NCBI GenBank assembly: GCA_019311115.1
Contig: JAFDDB010000017.1
Span: forward strand, 1-37,573
DNA: 37,573 nucleotides
Source of the DNA: Deltaproteobacteria bacterium
GTDB lineage: Bacteria > Myxococcota_A > UBA9160 > SZUA-336
Direction: 5' to 3'
Under the pieces are notes generated by a model. It was not told where the DNA came from and ran no database searches. It saw only the letters and a program-made list of their open reading frames with translations. This document shows positions 28,020 to 31,432 of this stretch, in pieces. A program made the translations under genes and the position numbers. The number at the start of each line of letters is the position of its first letter. The first letter of the stretch is position 1.

Positions 28020-29420
28020 TCATCTCACCGGCTCGGCCGGGACCAGGGGCCCGAGGTCCACGCCGAGCTCGACTTCGGCAAAGCCGAACGCGCGCGCGAC
28101 GCGCGGTGCGATCGACGGGCCGGCGACCGTCCGCTCCGGAACCGGGCGCACCATGGCGTACCCGCAGCGCAGCGACGGCCCGGGGCCAAGCGAGACCCAC
28201 ACGTCGGGCGGCTCGGCGTCGCGCGCCGCCCGGAAGCCGCCGCACCGCGCCACGAGGGCGCGCACCTCCGTCGACACCTGCGGCTTCTGCACGACGATCC
28301 CCGAGCCCCCACCCCGCACCGCGTCCGCCGCTTCGAGCAGCTCGCGCTCGAGCTCCGGCAGCCGGTAGTCGAGCGACTCGCCGGCCTGCGCAGCGAGTGC
28401 CAGCGCGTGCAACGGGAGCCCGCTGCCACCTTCCAGCAGGCGGAACGCCGCCCCGATGCGCGGGTTGATCTCGGTCGGAACGAAGCCCTCTTCCGCGAGC
28501 ACACCGTCGAGCGTGAACACGCCGCGGTAGTCGAGCCGCTCGAGAAGCGCGTGCCCGATGCAGCGGGCGACCGCCCGGATGCTCTCGCGGTCGCGCGAGT
28601 TCGGATCCCAGAAGCTGGCGGTTCCCGCGTAGACGAACTCCCCGCCCCGGGGCCGACGGAAGGTGAGCGTCTCGATCGGGCGGAAGACCGCCACCCCCTG
28701 CCCCGTGACCAGGCCGTGCACCGAGCAGGGAATGCCCTCGAGAAAGGGCTGCACTCGTACGCGGCTGCAGTGCTCGGCGAAGAACGACTCGGCCTCGCAC
28801 GCGGAGTCCTCGGACCGCACCCAGCGCACGTGGCTGGCGCCGCCGTTGATACCCTCCCGCGTGTCGCCGGACCAGACGGTTCCCGCTCCACGGTCGATGC
28901 GCGCCGCCGCCCCGCGAAGCGCGGCCGCCTCGGCCGCCACCACGGCGAGCGGACCGCGCCGCACGCCGATCGCGTCCAGGAAGGCCGGCAGCCTCGTCTT
29001 GTCCTCGAGTGCCGCCCACTCCGGCGCGCGGCGCGCGTAGCGTGGGCGCCCGAAGACATCCGGCACGTCCGACAGCACGATCGTACCGAGCGCCTGCGCG
29101 CGGCGGTCCGGGTCCCAGCGGTCGAGTGCCTTGCGCGCGCGCTCGGGAAGACGCCGCAGCGCCCGCTCGTACGCGCGCATCGACGAGAGCATGTCCGGGG
29201 CGTCGACCTCGAGCGAGAGCCAGTCGGCCTCGCAGGGCTCGGGCAAGGTGCCGGTGCCGATGGATCCGGCCAGCAGGAACGGGCGCTGGGCGCCGCAGGC
29301 CAGCAGCTCGCGGGCCAGCCCCGCCTGCGCGACGACGGGGCCGCTGCCGATCACCAGGAAACGCCGGCCCGCAAACACGGGCCGCAGCAGCTCGCGGTAG
29401 TACTCGGGATCGAGACTCAT
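28020..29420 (-). CDS. Uncharacterised ATP-grasp ligase
   Basis: 466 residues from ATG 29420, which has a GGAGAAAA ribosome site; a longer frame would run back through the terminator. The N-terminal third has a Rossmann-like nucleotide loop R-R-F-L-V-I-G-S-G-P (19-28) of a pre-ATP-grasp domain. The ATP-grasp part includes F-L-E-G-I-P-C-S-V-H-G, R-G-V-F-T-L-D-G-V-L and G-F-V-P-T-E-I-N-P-R-I-G-A, where the E-I-N-P-R segment carries the metal-binding Glu and Asn. Such enzymes activate a carboxylate as acyl phosphate and join it to an amine or thiol. Similar proteins in actinobacteria lack assigned substrates. It follows an attenuator with a 31-codon ORF and precedes a MATE exporter. Confidence 0.8.
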   Translation of the reverse strand: MSLDPEYYRELLRPVFAGRRFLVIGSGPVVAQAGLARELLACGAQRPFLLAGSIGTGTLPEPCEADWLSLEVDAPDMLSSMRAYERALRRLPERARKALDRWDPDRRAQALGTIVLSDVPDVFGRPRYARRAPEWAALEDKTRLPAFLDAIGVRRGPLAVVAAEAAALRGAAARIDRGAGTVWSGDTREGINGGASHVRWVRSEDSACEAESFFAEHCSRVRVQPFLEGIPCSVHGLVTGQGVAVFRPIETLTFRRPRGGEFVYAGTASFWDPNSRDRESIRAVARCIGHALLERLDYRGVFTLDGVLAEEGFVPTEINPRIGAAFRLLEGGSGLPLHALALAAQAGESLDYRLPELERELLEAADAVRGGGSGIVVQKPQVSTEVRALVARCGGFRAARDAEPPDVWVSLGPGPSLRCGYAMVRPVPERTVAGPSIAPRVARAFGFAEVELGVDLGPLVPAEPVR

Positions 29421-29490: not shown

Positions 29491-29522
29491 AAAAAACCCC
29501 TCCGGCCTTACGGCGGGAGAGG
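29491..29522 (-). terminator. Intrinsic terminator ahead of the ATP-grasp gene (attenuator arm)
   Basis: On the minus strand an 11-bp stem with one C-C mismatch and a four-base GTAA loop (29497-29522) is followed directly by six T residues (29491-29496). It lies 71-102 bp before the ATP-grasp start and 25 bp after the stop of the 31-codon ORF. This is the strongest intrinsic terminator in the window. The stem is rich in G-C pairs. Confidence 0.85.
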
Positions 29523-29571
29523 TCCGGGTTCGTTTTGTGCCAGGTTGCTAAGCCGGCCGGACCTCTCCGCC
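29512..29571 (-). promoter_or_regulatory. Antiterminator pairing competing with the terminator
   Basis: On the minus strand GGCGGAGAGGTCCGG (29571-29557, codons 25-29 of the small ORF) is complementary to CCGGACCTCTCCCGCC (29527-29512) with one bulged C. The second arm is also the 5' arm of the terminator, so the two structures cannot coexist. CCGGAC in codons 5-7 of the ORF could pair with GTCCGG of the first arm, completing a 1:2 / 2:3 / 3:4 attenuator set. Confidence 0.7.
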
Positions 29572-29643
29572 GTCGGTCATGACGACCGTAATGACGGGCT
29601 TGAGGCCCATGTAGAGGACGCGCTGTCCGGGTTGCCGACTCAT
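29548..29643 (-). CDS. Candidate 31-residue leader peptide (short ORF)
   Basis: ATG 29643 to TAG 29548-29550 encodes 31 residues, starting M-S-R-Q-P-G-Q-R and ending D-G-G-E-V-R-P-A. A run of Val-Ile-Thr-Val-Val lies at 17-21, with Met at 12 and 22. Codons 25-29 form one arm of the antiterminator. A ribosome finishing at the stop would cover that arm and favour termination, while one halted around codons 11-22 would leave it free. The ATG lies nine bases after a TACGCT -10 and has no ribosome site, so it is probably leaderless. It could instead be a substrate peptide of the ATP-grasp enzyme. I recognise no homologue. Confidence 0.55.
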   Translation of the reverse strand: MSRQPGQRVLYMGLKPVITVVMTDGGEVRPA

Positions 29644-29652
29644 TGCGGAGGC

Positions 29653-29681
29653 AGCGTACGGCGGGCCGCGGCCCGCGTCAA
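29653..29681 (-). promoter_or_regulatory. Promoter of the attenuated leader
   Basis: On the minus strand TTGACG (29676-29681) is separated by exactly 17 nt from TACGCT (29653-29658), and ATG 29643 follows nine bases later. The -35 overlaps the stop codon of the upstream exported-protein gene. Confidence 0.5.
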
Positions 29682-30220
29682 CGGGAATCGGCCGTGCCGC
29701 CGTTCACCTGCCGCACGACCGGCGACTTCGGCGAACGCGGCGCCGGCGCGGCCGGTCCGGCGAGCGCACGGAAGGTCGGGGTCAGCTCCAGGATCAAGTG
29801 GCCGCCCTCGTGCTTCTCACCGCCCACGATCACGGGGCGTCCGCTCACCATCTGCAGCCGGGTATTCATGACCCCCGACATCTCGAAGTACACGTGGAGC
29901 CGCGAGCCGACGATCGAGACGGGCAGCAGGCGCACGGCGCGTCCCGTCGGCAATTCGAACTGGGCGGGGTGGCCGGGCTCCAGCCGGAAGCTCTCGCTCT
30001 GCACGATCTGCAGCGAGCCGAACGACATGGGCAGCCGCTTCTGGATGTCGCGGCAGTCCGGGTCCACCACGCCCTTCTCCTTGCGGGCGTAGATCACGCG
30101 AAGCTCGAGGTCGATGGGCGTGGCGTCCTGCGCGGGCGCCGGACCGGCGGCGCCGAGTACGAGCGACAACGCGAACAGCCCGAGCCCGGGCAGCACGAGG
30201 TTCCGGGCGCGGAAGCTCAC
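29678..30220 (-). CDS. Exported protein of unknown function in the sigma-factor operon
   Basis: 180 residues from GTG 30220, one base after the anti-sigma stop. A Sec signal peptide (L-V-L-P-G-L-G-L-F-A-L-S-L-V-L-G ... A-P-A-Q) ends near residue 31. The mature part is beta-rich: I-D-L-E-L-R-V-I-Y-A-R, F-G-S-L-Q-I-V-Q-S-E-S-F-R-L, L-P-V-S-I-V-G-S-R-L-H-V-Y-F-E. It ends in a Pro/Ala/Arg-rich tail. No known catalytic motif is visible. Its place behind an ECF sigma and its membrane partner suggests a periplasmic component of the same stress-sensing unit. I do not recognise the family. Confidence 0.75.
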   Translation of the reverse strand: MSFRARNLVLPGLGLFALSLVLGAAGPAPAQDATPIDLELRVIYARKEKGVVDPDCRDIQKRLPMSFGSLQIVQSESFRLEPGHPAQFELPTGRAVRLLPVSIVGSRLHVYFEMSGVMNTRLQMVSGRPVIVGGEKHEGGHLILELTPTFRALAGPAAPAPRSPKSPVVRQVNGGTADSR

Positions 30221-30221
30221 T

Positions 30222-30797
30222 TCACCACGCCGAGAGGCTGAGCGGCGCCAGCGACTGGTCCTCGGGTGCGTCGAGGATCCAGATCACGGTCGACCCGTCC
30301 TCGCCCTGGAAGATCATCAGGGGCGCGTCCTGGGCCAGGTCGTAGATCGCCGACGGAGAGCCCATGCCGAACGACTGCGAGCCGAGGCCGGCCGTGGCCA
30401 CGCCCGCGCCGTCGGAGCCGCGGAGCGCGTCCGGACTGGCCAACGCCAGCGCCAGCACGGCGGCCGCCCCGGCCAGCGCCAGCGGCACCGGACCGAGCAG
30501 GTCGCGGACCTGACCGAGCCAGCGAGCCGCCGACCGCGCCGCCGAGGGGCGCTCGGCGATCTCGACGTCGATGCGCGCCATGGCGGGCCGCAGCGACTGG
30601 ATCAGCAGATCGACCCGCGGAGCGGGCGGACCTTCGCTCCAGACCTCGCGCACCGCACGGCCGACCGCCTCGCTCTGGCGCAGGTGGGCCTGGGCCTCGG
30701 CGTCGCCGGCCAGTTCGCGGGCCAGCACGGCGCGGCGACGGGGCGACAGCGCGCCGTCGCGGTAGGCGTCGATCTTCTGCTCGCGAGAGCGCCTCAT
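30222..30797 (-). CDS. Anti-sigma-factor-like single-pass membrane protein
   Basis: 191 residues. Its ATG overlaps the sigma-factor stop by four bases. The N-terminal cytosolic region starts K-I-D-A-Y-R-D-G-A-L-S-P-R-R-R-A-V-L, the look of an anti-sigma domain. The protein has no cysteine at all, so the usual zinc ligands (H-x3-C-x2-C) are absent. One membrane helix lies at about 103-121 (V-P-L-A-L-A-G-A-A-A-V-L-A-L-A-L). The periplasmic C terminus contains L-M-I-F-Q-G-E-D-G-S-T-V-I-W-I-L-D, a strand seen in other proteins of sigma operons. I infer it holds the sigma factor at the inner membrane until a signal arrives. Confidence 0.75.
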   Translation of the reverse strand: MRRSREQKIDAYRDGALSPRRRAVLARELAGDAEAQAHLRQSEAVGRAVREVWSEGPPAPRVDLLIQSLRPAMARIDVEIAERPSAARSAARWLGQVRDLLGPVPLALAGAAAVLALALASPDALRGSDGAGVATAGLGSQSFGMGSPSAIYDLAQDAPLMIFQGEDGSTVIWILDAPEDQSLAPLSLSAW

Positions 30798-31432
30798 GAA
30801 ACATCCCCCGGCTCGATTCCCCGCTCGCGCAGGAACGCGACCATCTTCTTGCGCGCGTAGTGGAGCCGGCTCATCACCGTGCCCTTCGAGATCTGCATGG
30901 TCTCGGCGATCTCCTCGTAGGATAGCCCGTCGATCTCGCGCAAGAGAAGCACCTCGCGTTGTCCGTCGGGCAGCCCCTGGATCCCTTCACCGACGAGCTT
31001 CCGGACCTCGGCTCGCATGGAGCCCAGCTCCGGGTCGGAGTCCGCCGGCTGCGGCGCCCGCGCGTCTACCTGCCGGGCGACGTTGTCGTCCCACTCGAGC
31101 GACACGCCGGCCTTGCTGCGCCGCCGCCGGTCGAGCGCCAGGTTCACCACGATCCGGTAGAGCCAGGTGTAGAAGGAGGAACGGGACTCGAAGTTGCGCA
31201 GCGCCCGGTAGGCCTTGATCAGCGCCTCCTGGAGCACATCTTCGGCCTCGGACTCGTCGCGGACCACCCGGTAGGCGGCCCGGAAGGCCCGGTCGGAGTA
31301 ACGGCGCACCAAGGCCTCGAAGGCCGCGTGGCTCCCGTCGCGGGCTTCCTGGACCAGCTCCCTGTCGGGGCGGTCCTGCTGTGCCGTCTCTCCGATATCA
31401 GGCATGAACGTGAGCGTCGCGACTGCTCGCAT
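30794..31432 (-). CDS. ECF (RpoE-like) RNA polymerase sigma factor
   Basis: 212 residues from ATG 31432, chosen because GGAGGAAAGGG precedes it; Met10 has no such site. Region 2 is clear (F-E-A-L-V-R-R-Y-S-D-R-A-F-R-A-A-Y, D-E-S-E-A-E-D-V-L-Q-E-A-L-I-K-A-Y). Region 4 has L-P-D-G-Q-R-E-V-L-L-L-R-E-I-D-G-L-S-Y-E-E-I-A-E and the helix-turn-helix I-S-K-G-T-V-M-S-R-L-H-Y-A-R-K-K. Regions 1 and 3 are missing, as in group IV sigmas. It is the first gene of an operon with an overlapping membrane anti-sigma and an exported protein, the standard layout of an envelope-stress switch. Confidence 0.93.
   Translation of the reverse strand: MRAVATLTFMPDIGETAQQDRPDRELVQEARDGSHAAFEALVRRYSDRAFRAAYRVVRDESEAEDVLQEALIKAYRALRNFESRSSFYTWLYRIVVNLALDRRRRSKAGVSLEWDDNVARQVDARAPQPADSDPELGSMRAEVRKLVGEGIQGLPDGQREVLLLREIDGLSYEEIAETMQISKGTVMSRLHYARKKMVAFLRERGIEPGDVS

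Follow-up and report, generated by a model that had tools for sequence, protein, structure and literature searches.

A putative valine-keyed transcription attenuator, probably derived from a class-wide leuA attenuator family, upstream of an ATP-grasp ligase-like gene

The window (the whole 37,573-nt stretch of DNA analysed here) contains on its minus strand a gene for an ATP-grasp ligase-like protein, and the region preceding it raises the question of whether its transcription is controlled by an RNA switch and, if so, which amino acid the switch would sense. An earlier note had seen in this region the logic of an amino-acid attenuator, a view that is now backed by conservation in relatives, covariation and promoter architecture. 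We consider it quite probable that the element is a ribosome-mediated transcription attenuator of the ATP-grasp gene, keyed to valyl-tRNA and descended from a leucine-keyed leuA attenuator. Its predicted parts, and the genes behind it, are as follows:

29681-29676, minus strand: -35 box TTGACG, overlapping the stop codon (TGA) of the gene before it (29678-30220); from sequence, with spacing as in most relatives
29658-29653, minus strand: -10 box TACGCT; from sequence
29643-29548, minus strand: leader ORF of 31 codons plus TAG, MSRQPGQRVLYMGLKPVITVVMTDGGEVRPA; predicted from sequence, its tail aligning with leuA leaders
29608-29593, minus strand: arm 1, GGGCCTCAAGCCCGTC, which forms the 1:2 fold with arm 2; from the fold energy, -25.4 kcal/mol
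29586-29578, minus strand: control codons Val20-Val21-Met22 (GTC GTC ATG), positions -5, -4 and -3; from alignment on the AGE/GGE tail
29573-29557, minus strand: arm 2, ACGGCGGAGAGGTCCGG, within leader ORF codons 24-29; from sequence and pairing
29527-29510, minus strand: arm 3, CCGGACCTCTCCCGCCGT, common to antiterminator and terminator; from sequence and pairing
29507-29496, minus strand: arm 4, GGCCGGAGGGGT, the 3' half of the terminator, with a C.C mismatch opposite arm 3; from sequence and pairing
29496-29491, minus strand: T6 tract of the intrinsic terminator; from sequence
29420-28020, minus strand: ATP-grasp ligase-like protein, 466 aa from the ATG at 29420; Pfam PF02655
28000-26624, minus strand: MATE efflux transporter, about 20 nt downstream of the ATP-grasp gene; PF01554, TIGR00797

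The anatomy given in the earlier note, namely a 31-codon ORF with an arm in its last codons, a complementary arm 29 nt further on, an antiterminator of 15 bp interrupted by a single bulge, and a strong terminator built from the second arm with a T6 tail, was recovered in full. The 2:3 duplex consists of AGAGGUCCGG/CCGGACCUCU (10 bp) and GGCGG/CCGCC (5 bp), separated by one bulged C and extended at the outer end by two further pairs (ACGGCGG/CCGCCGU), while the terminator reads ACCUCUCCCGCC-GUAA-GGCCGGAGGGGU, with a single C.C mismatch, followed by T6, the end of which lies about 70 nt upstream of the ATP-grasp ATG. Arm 3 is used by both hairpins, which exclude each other, as had been claimed. 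Predicted fold energies are -39.0 kcal/mol for 2:3, -21.7 for 3:4 and -25.4 for 1:2, and the energy of the 2:3 duplex (-36.0; the shuffles averaged -18.4, sd 3.1) was reached by 0 of 2000 shuffles. The bulge arises because arm 2 of the window lacks one G of a GGCGGG run, and the C.C mismatch may keep the C of arm 3 available for pairing with that GGCGGG, which would leave the terminator weaker than the antiterminator. The site was missed by a simple scan for terminators, presumably due to the C.C mismatch. Arm 1 and the leader promoter, both present, had not been part of the earlier description.

The promoter-like boxes, TTGACG-N17-TACGCT, stop 9 nt short of the leader ATG. Among the leuA leaders examined in relatives, most have TTGAC with a spacing of 16-18 nt and a start codon that mostly lies 6-11 nt past the -10 box; our promoter scorer, which was written after the first cases had been seen, illustrates this regularity and is no test of it. 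Since the start codon follows the -10 box by only a few nucleotides in the window and in most leuA leaders, the attenuator RNA probably begins at or near the leader AUG, i.e. the mRNA is probably leaderless. The overlap of the -35 box with the upstream stop codon makes it probable that the element is served by a promoter of its own and is more than the tail of the sigma-factor operon. That operon (29678-31432, minus strand) lies immediately before the leader promoter. Its first gene, at 30794-31432, encodes a sigma factor of the ECF type; the two ORFs behind it have no Pfam match and may encode an anti-sigma factor (30222-30797) and a secreted protein (29678-30220).

When the leader region (191 bases) was used as a DNA query, the terminator was recovered in nine other genomes at 87-96% identity (best E 9.7e-9), and the matches that were opened lie upstream of 2-isopropylmalate synthase genes (leuA, by NCBIfam). 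The terminator pattern is present in 41 of 60 relatives, with few hits to reversed-pattern controls, and most of its sites precede leuA and have a leader with a Leu run. A covariance model, R1, made from 25 members including the window, has matches in 75 of the 91 class genomes, mostly before leuA. The window scores 55.9 bits, and, being itself an R1 member, draws its independent evidence from the leader DNA search. With this family it has in common the promoter spacing, the sequences of arm 2 and arm 3, the C.C mismatch (found in 27 of 28 members, in part by selection), the arm 3-loop-arm 4 sequence and the AGEV/GGEVRPA peptide tail.

Members of R1 were picked by an exact terminator core, so that the invariant inner pairs count as no evidence, while neither arm 2 nor the outer pairs that covary fall within the selection motif. 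In the terminator alignment 98% of cells are paired, with 19 double-change cells as compared with 5.5 in shuffles (0/500); the antiterminator, in which arm 2 itself was located by pairing, has 86% of cells paired and 17 double-change cells as compared with 10.1 (0/500). Shifting the partner by 1-3 columns causes pairing to drop sharply in both. Leaders from genomes of the window's own taxonomic family combine UCC in arm 2 with GGA in arm 3, and the others have UCU and AGA. The earlier note had staked its reading on conservation of the arms and ORF in relatives, and the element turned out to be class-wide. By its sequence, it is a member of a class-wide attenuator family that Rfam does not hold: there was no Rfam match, to Leu_leader or any other leader, at the gathering threshold, and nothing credible at relaxed thresholds. 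No synteny was found between the window and the leuA loci of same-family genomes. Two family traits, the Leu control codons and a downstream leuA, are replaced in the window by Val-Val-Met and the ATP-grasp gene, and we therefore class its element as a re-keyed derivative and not as a leu attenuator.

These comparisons bear on two other ways of accounting for the hairpins. The position between two same-strand genes, downstream of the gene at 29678-30220, would suit a mere intrinsic terminator of the sigma-factor operon, accompanied by an ORF and a second arm that arose by chance; we regard this as highly improbable, as the promoter, the leader start, arm 2 and the register of the control codons are all conserved with the leuA leaders of relatives, the compared leuA neighbourhoods have no such operon upstream, and the 2:3 duplex surpassed all 2000 shuffles. 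Mutually exclusive folds are likewise used by riboswitches, and a ligand-binding or protein-bound RNA operating without ribosome-mediated control would produce them too. The Rfam results speak against it at both thresholds, the spacer between the arms varies in length and sequence across the family, unlike an aptamer, and the conserved parts are the coding register and the amino-acid runs, making such an RNA extremely improbable. A SAM-type riboswitch, which had been suspected from AGCAACCTGGC, found no support in Rfam at gathering or relaxed thresholds. Homology and anatomy together argue strongly for ribosome-mediated attenuation as the predicted mechanism.

The amino acid sensed can be approached through the control codons. 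When leuA leaders are aligned on the AGE/GGE tail, Leu occupies position -5 in 28 of 28, position -4 in 24 of 28 and position -3 in 27 of 28; the tail of the window, TVVMTDGGEVRPA, aligns with GLLLSEAGGVRPAL in G009, a genome of the same family, and Val20-Val21-Met22 fall on the three Leu positions, which makes valine the most likely signal. The VITVV run of the leader ORF (29595-29581, minus strand) contributes to this stretch, and its last Val codon ends 7-9 nt upstream of arm 2, so that a ribosome stalled there would, judging from known ribosome footprints, leave most of arm 2 free. Of the branched-chain or threonine signal that had been put forward earlier, valine (i.e. valyl-tRNA charging) is thus retained as probable, and threonine appears unlikely. 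Met at -3 and the nearby Ile and Thr leave room for a mixed signal, to which Ile and Met are possible contributors. The ilv leaders of E. coli are multivalent, and V-I-T-V-V-M-T does hold Ile, Thr and Met, as would be expected of a true attenuator that responds to isoleucine, threonine or methionine, or to several amino acids jointly; we nevertheless hold such keying to be rather unlikely, as Val stands at both of the positions (-5 and -4) at which relatives always or almost always have Leu, and as the Val-rich leader of genome G034 counts, up to its position 21, five Val codons, no Thr, and one codon each for Ile and, apart from the start, Met. No attenuator leader was seen when ilvB of the window's own genome (G000) and of relatives was inspected by eye.

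The G034 leader, MNLGSCLQGCVLRLVVVAIFVMPTDGVHPGLLT, was found independently of R1. It is Val-rich, its 2:3 duplex is predicted at -28.3 kcal/mol, the U tract of its terminator is weak, and both it and the window leader contain Val21-Met22-(Pro)-Thr-Asp-Gly. It precedes an ATP-grasp homologue that is 41% identical to the window protein and belongs to a genome of another taxonomic family. Homologues occur in 36 of 379 genomes of the phylum and in some Actinobacteria, and those of the class form one clade, ((window, G059), (G086, G034)), with support 98/96. Looking upstream of homologous ATP-grasp genes, which the earlier note had proposed, yielded a Val-rich leader with pairing arms in G034 and none in G059 (the closest homologue, 47%) or G086; across the 379 phylum genomes and the Actinobacteria, G034 was the only other case. 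It was also the sole convincing R1 match among the 35 other ATP-grasp homologue loci (E 5e-4, the next being 0.19). A search for the VM-(P)-TDG codon pattern was swamped by ordinary coding sequence. As G059 and G086 lack the leader, only two genomes connect the enzyme family with valine, and one ancestral gain followed by two losses, or two gains, would both be possible histories.

The regulated gene is preceded by GGAG at 29431-29428 (minus strand), and its product carries the invariant E317/N319/R321 of the ATP-grasp core. The predicted structure (pLDDT 92.5), whose nearest solved structures include ATP-grasp folds of the PurK/PurT/PylC type, leaves the predicted ATP-grasp fold well supported; NCBIfam and PDB sequence searches were uninformative as to substrate. 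The MATE gene is presumably co-transcribed with it. The attenuator had earlier been placed before a ligase/exporter pair: the ATP-grasp half recurs behind such a leader in G034, but the pairing was not found in other class members, the MATE gene adjoining only in the window.

In the mechanism that we propose, RNA polymerase would start at the dedicated promoter, with the mRNA 5' end at or close to the leader AUG. With valyl-tRNA plentiful, the ribosome would reach the stop codon and cover arm 2, allowing 3:4 to pair and transcription to terminate at T6. When valyl-tRNA is scarce, it would stall at Val20/Val21, helped by the nearby Val17/Ile18, and arm 2, left free, would pair with arm 3, so that no terminator forms and the ATP-grasp and MATE genes are transcribed. 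If the leader is not translated, 1:2 pairing would make termination the default. The whole element would have been derived from the Leu-keyed leuA attenuator of the class by replacement of the Leu codons.

It is conceivable that regulation was lost and that the element is a decayed relic of a leu attenuator, carried along by a rearrangement: leuA of the same genome bears a different, diverged Leu leader, and arm 2 is short of one G relative to the family. Set against this, 15-17 bp of pairing between the arms persist, the promoter, the ORF and the T6 tract are intact, and the Leu codons were not randomly changed but swapped for a Val run, with a parallel case in G034. We judge decay quite improbable and retain a functional valine-keyed attenuator as the preferred reading.

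Other copies of the element also appear to have changed their key. R1 elements with Trp-codon leaders stand before an MFS transporter gene at loci L202 (G062), L203 (G063), L205 (G069), L209 (G068) and L210 (G028), the Trp codons falling on the control positions or close to them (TAWTVWKCKVGGGAPGY, SIWKARVGEGISGR, SWWKRAAGEEWPD) or, in G069, forming WCW further upstream. Their arms pair at about -26 kcal/mol, and the transporter is likely regulated by Trp. These copies suggest that relocation and re-keying of the cassette happened more than once. On a broader proposition we are evenly divided: that one cassette was duplicated within the class, re-keyed from Leu to Val and from Leu to Trp, and brought to stand in front of genes that do not belong to the usual amino-acid biosynthesis set, the Val copy at the ATP-grasp ligase and MATE exporter and the Trp copy at the MFS transporter. 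If so, the ATP-grasp enzyme would be part of valine-related metabolism or the maker of a valine-containing product, which provides a functional lead for an ATP-grasp family without an assigned substrate. It would also suggest that an amino-acid RNA switch can change both signal and target while its hardware is kept, the arms staying and a few control codons differing. Apart from this, the R1 family adds a class-wide attenuator to those described in Rfam.

Comparison with known systems shows that the nearest relatives are the leuA leaders of the window's own class, which match the element in promoter spacing, arms, C.C mismatch and peptide tail and differ from it in control codons and target. 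The enterobacterial leu operon attenuator (leuL; Rfam Leu_leader) similarly has control codons just before arm 2 and exclusive 2:3 and 3:4 hairpins, whereas the window element has no Rfam match, Val-Val-Met in place of Leu, and an ATP-grasp gene instead of leuA as its target. The ilvBN and ilvGMEDA attenuators (Val-, Ile- and Leu-keyed) resemble it in their Val-rich leader peptide and terminator/antiterminator choice; unlike them, it has no ilv gene downstream and would have its origin in the leuA element of the class. In the trp attenuator rnTrpL of Sinorhizobium meliloti the RNA is leaderless and begins at the leader-ORF AUG (PMC7298713), as is probable in the window, although phylum, sequence, amino acid and target all differ. 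The LEU element upstream of actinobacterial leuA has a leader ORF with a Leu run and is described as forming a pseudoknot or an alternative hairpin, its base stem being made of the Leu codon run and the leuA Shine-Dalgarno box (PMC1262725), while the window has an intrinsic terminator and an antiterminator. Ile/Val/Leu-rich leaders precede ilvB in Actinobacteria, where runs of branched-chain amino acid codons overlap candidate terminators (PMC1262725, PMC10272879); in S. coelicolor, mutating the codons at ilvB is reported to have been without effect, so that classical attenuation was not confirmed there (PMC1262725). These leaders share with the window the codon runs near a terminator, and differ in target gene and RNA sequence.

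Several further loci deserve mention. In the same genome as the window, leuA (L171, G000:C75) has a Leu leader, MMVMTRTRKTSGALLQLLLTGPVSLSA, a TTGACG-N17-TAGGCT promoter, and diverged arms without an R1 match. In genus g26, loci L049, L050, L051, L157 and L158 have a related terminator, GAACCCCTCCCGCC...GGCCGGAGGGGTTC, and no obvious leader peptide, several g26 loci carrying a CGGAGGGGGACTCC arm about 80 nt upstream of the terminator. Finally, a strong terminator, the same in sequence and with TTTTTC, stands at L022 (G008:C492); behind it, directly before a small membrane-protein-like ORF (MKYFSWTPSREIWIEPNPRISVVIGVFGVLVTLVGLVF), comes a second complementary segment, GGCGGGAGAGGTCC.
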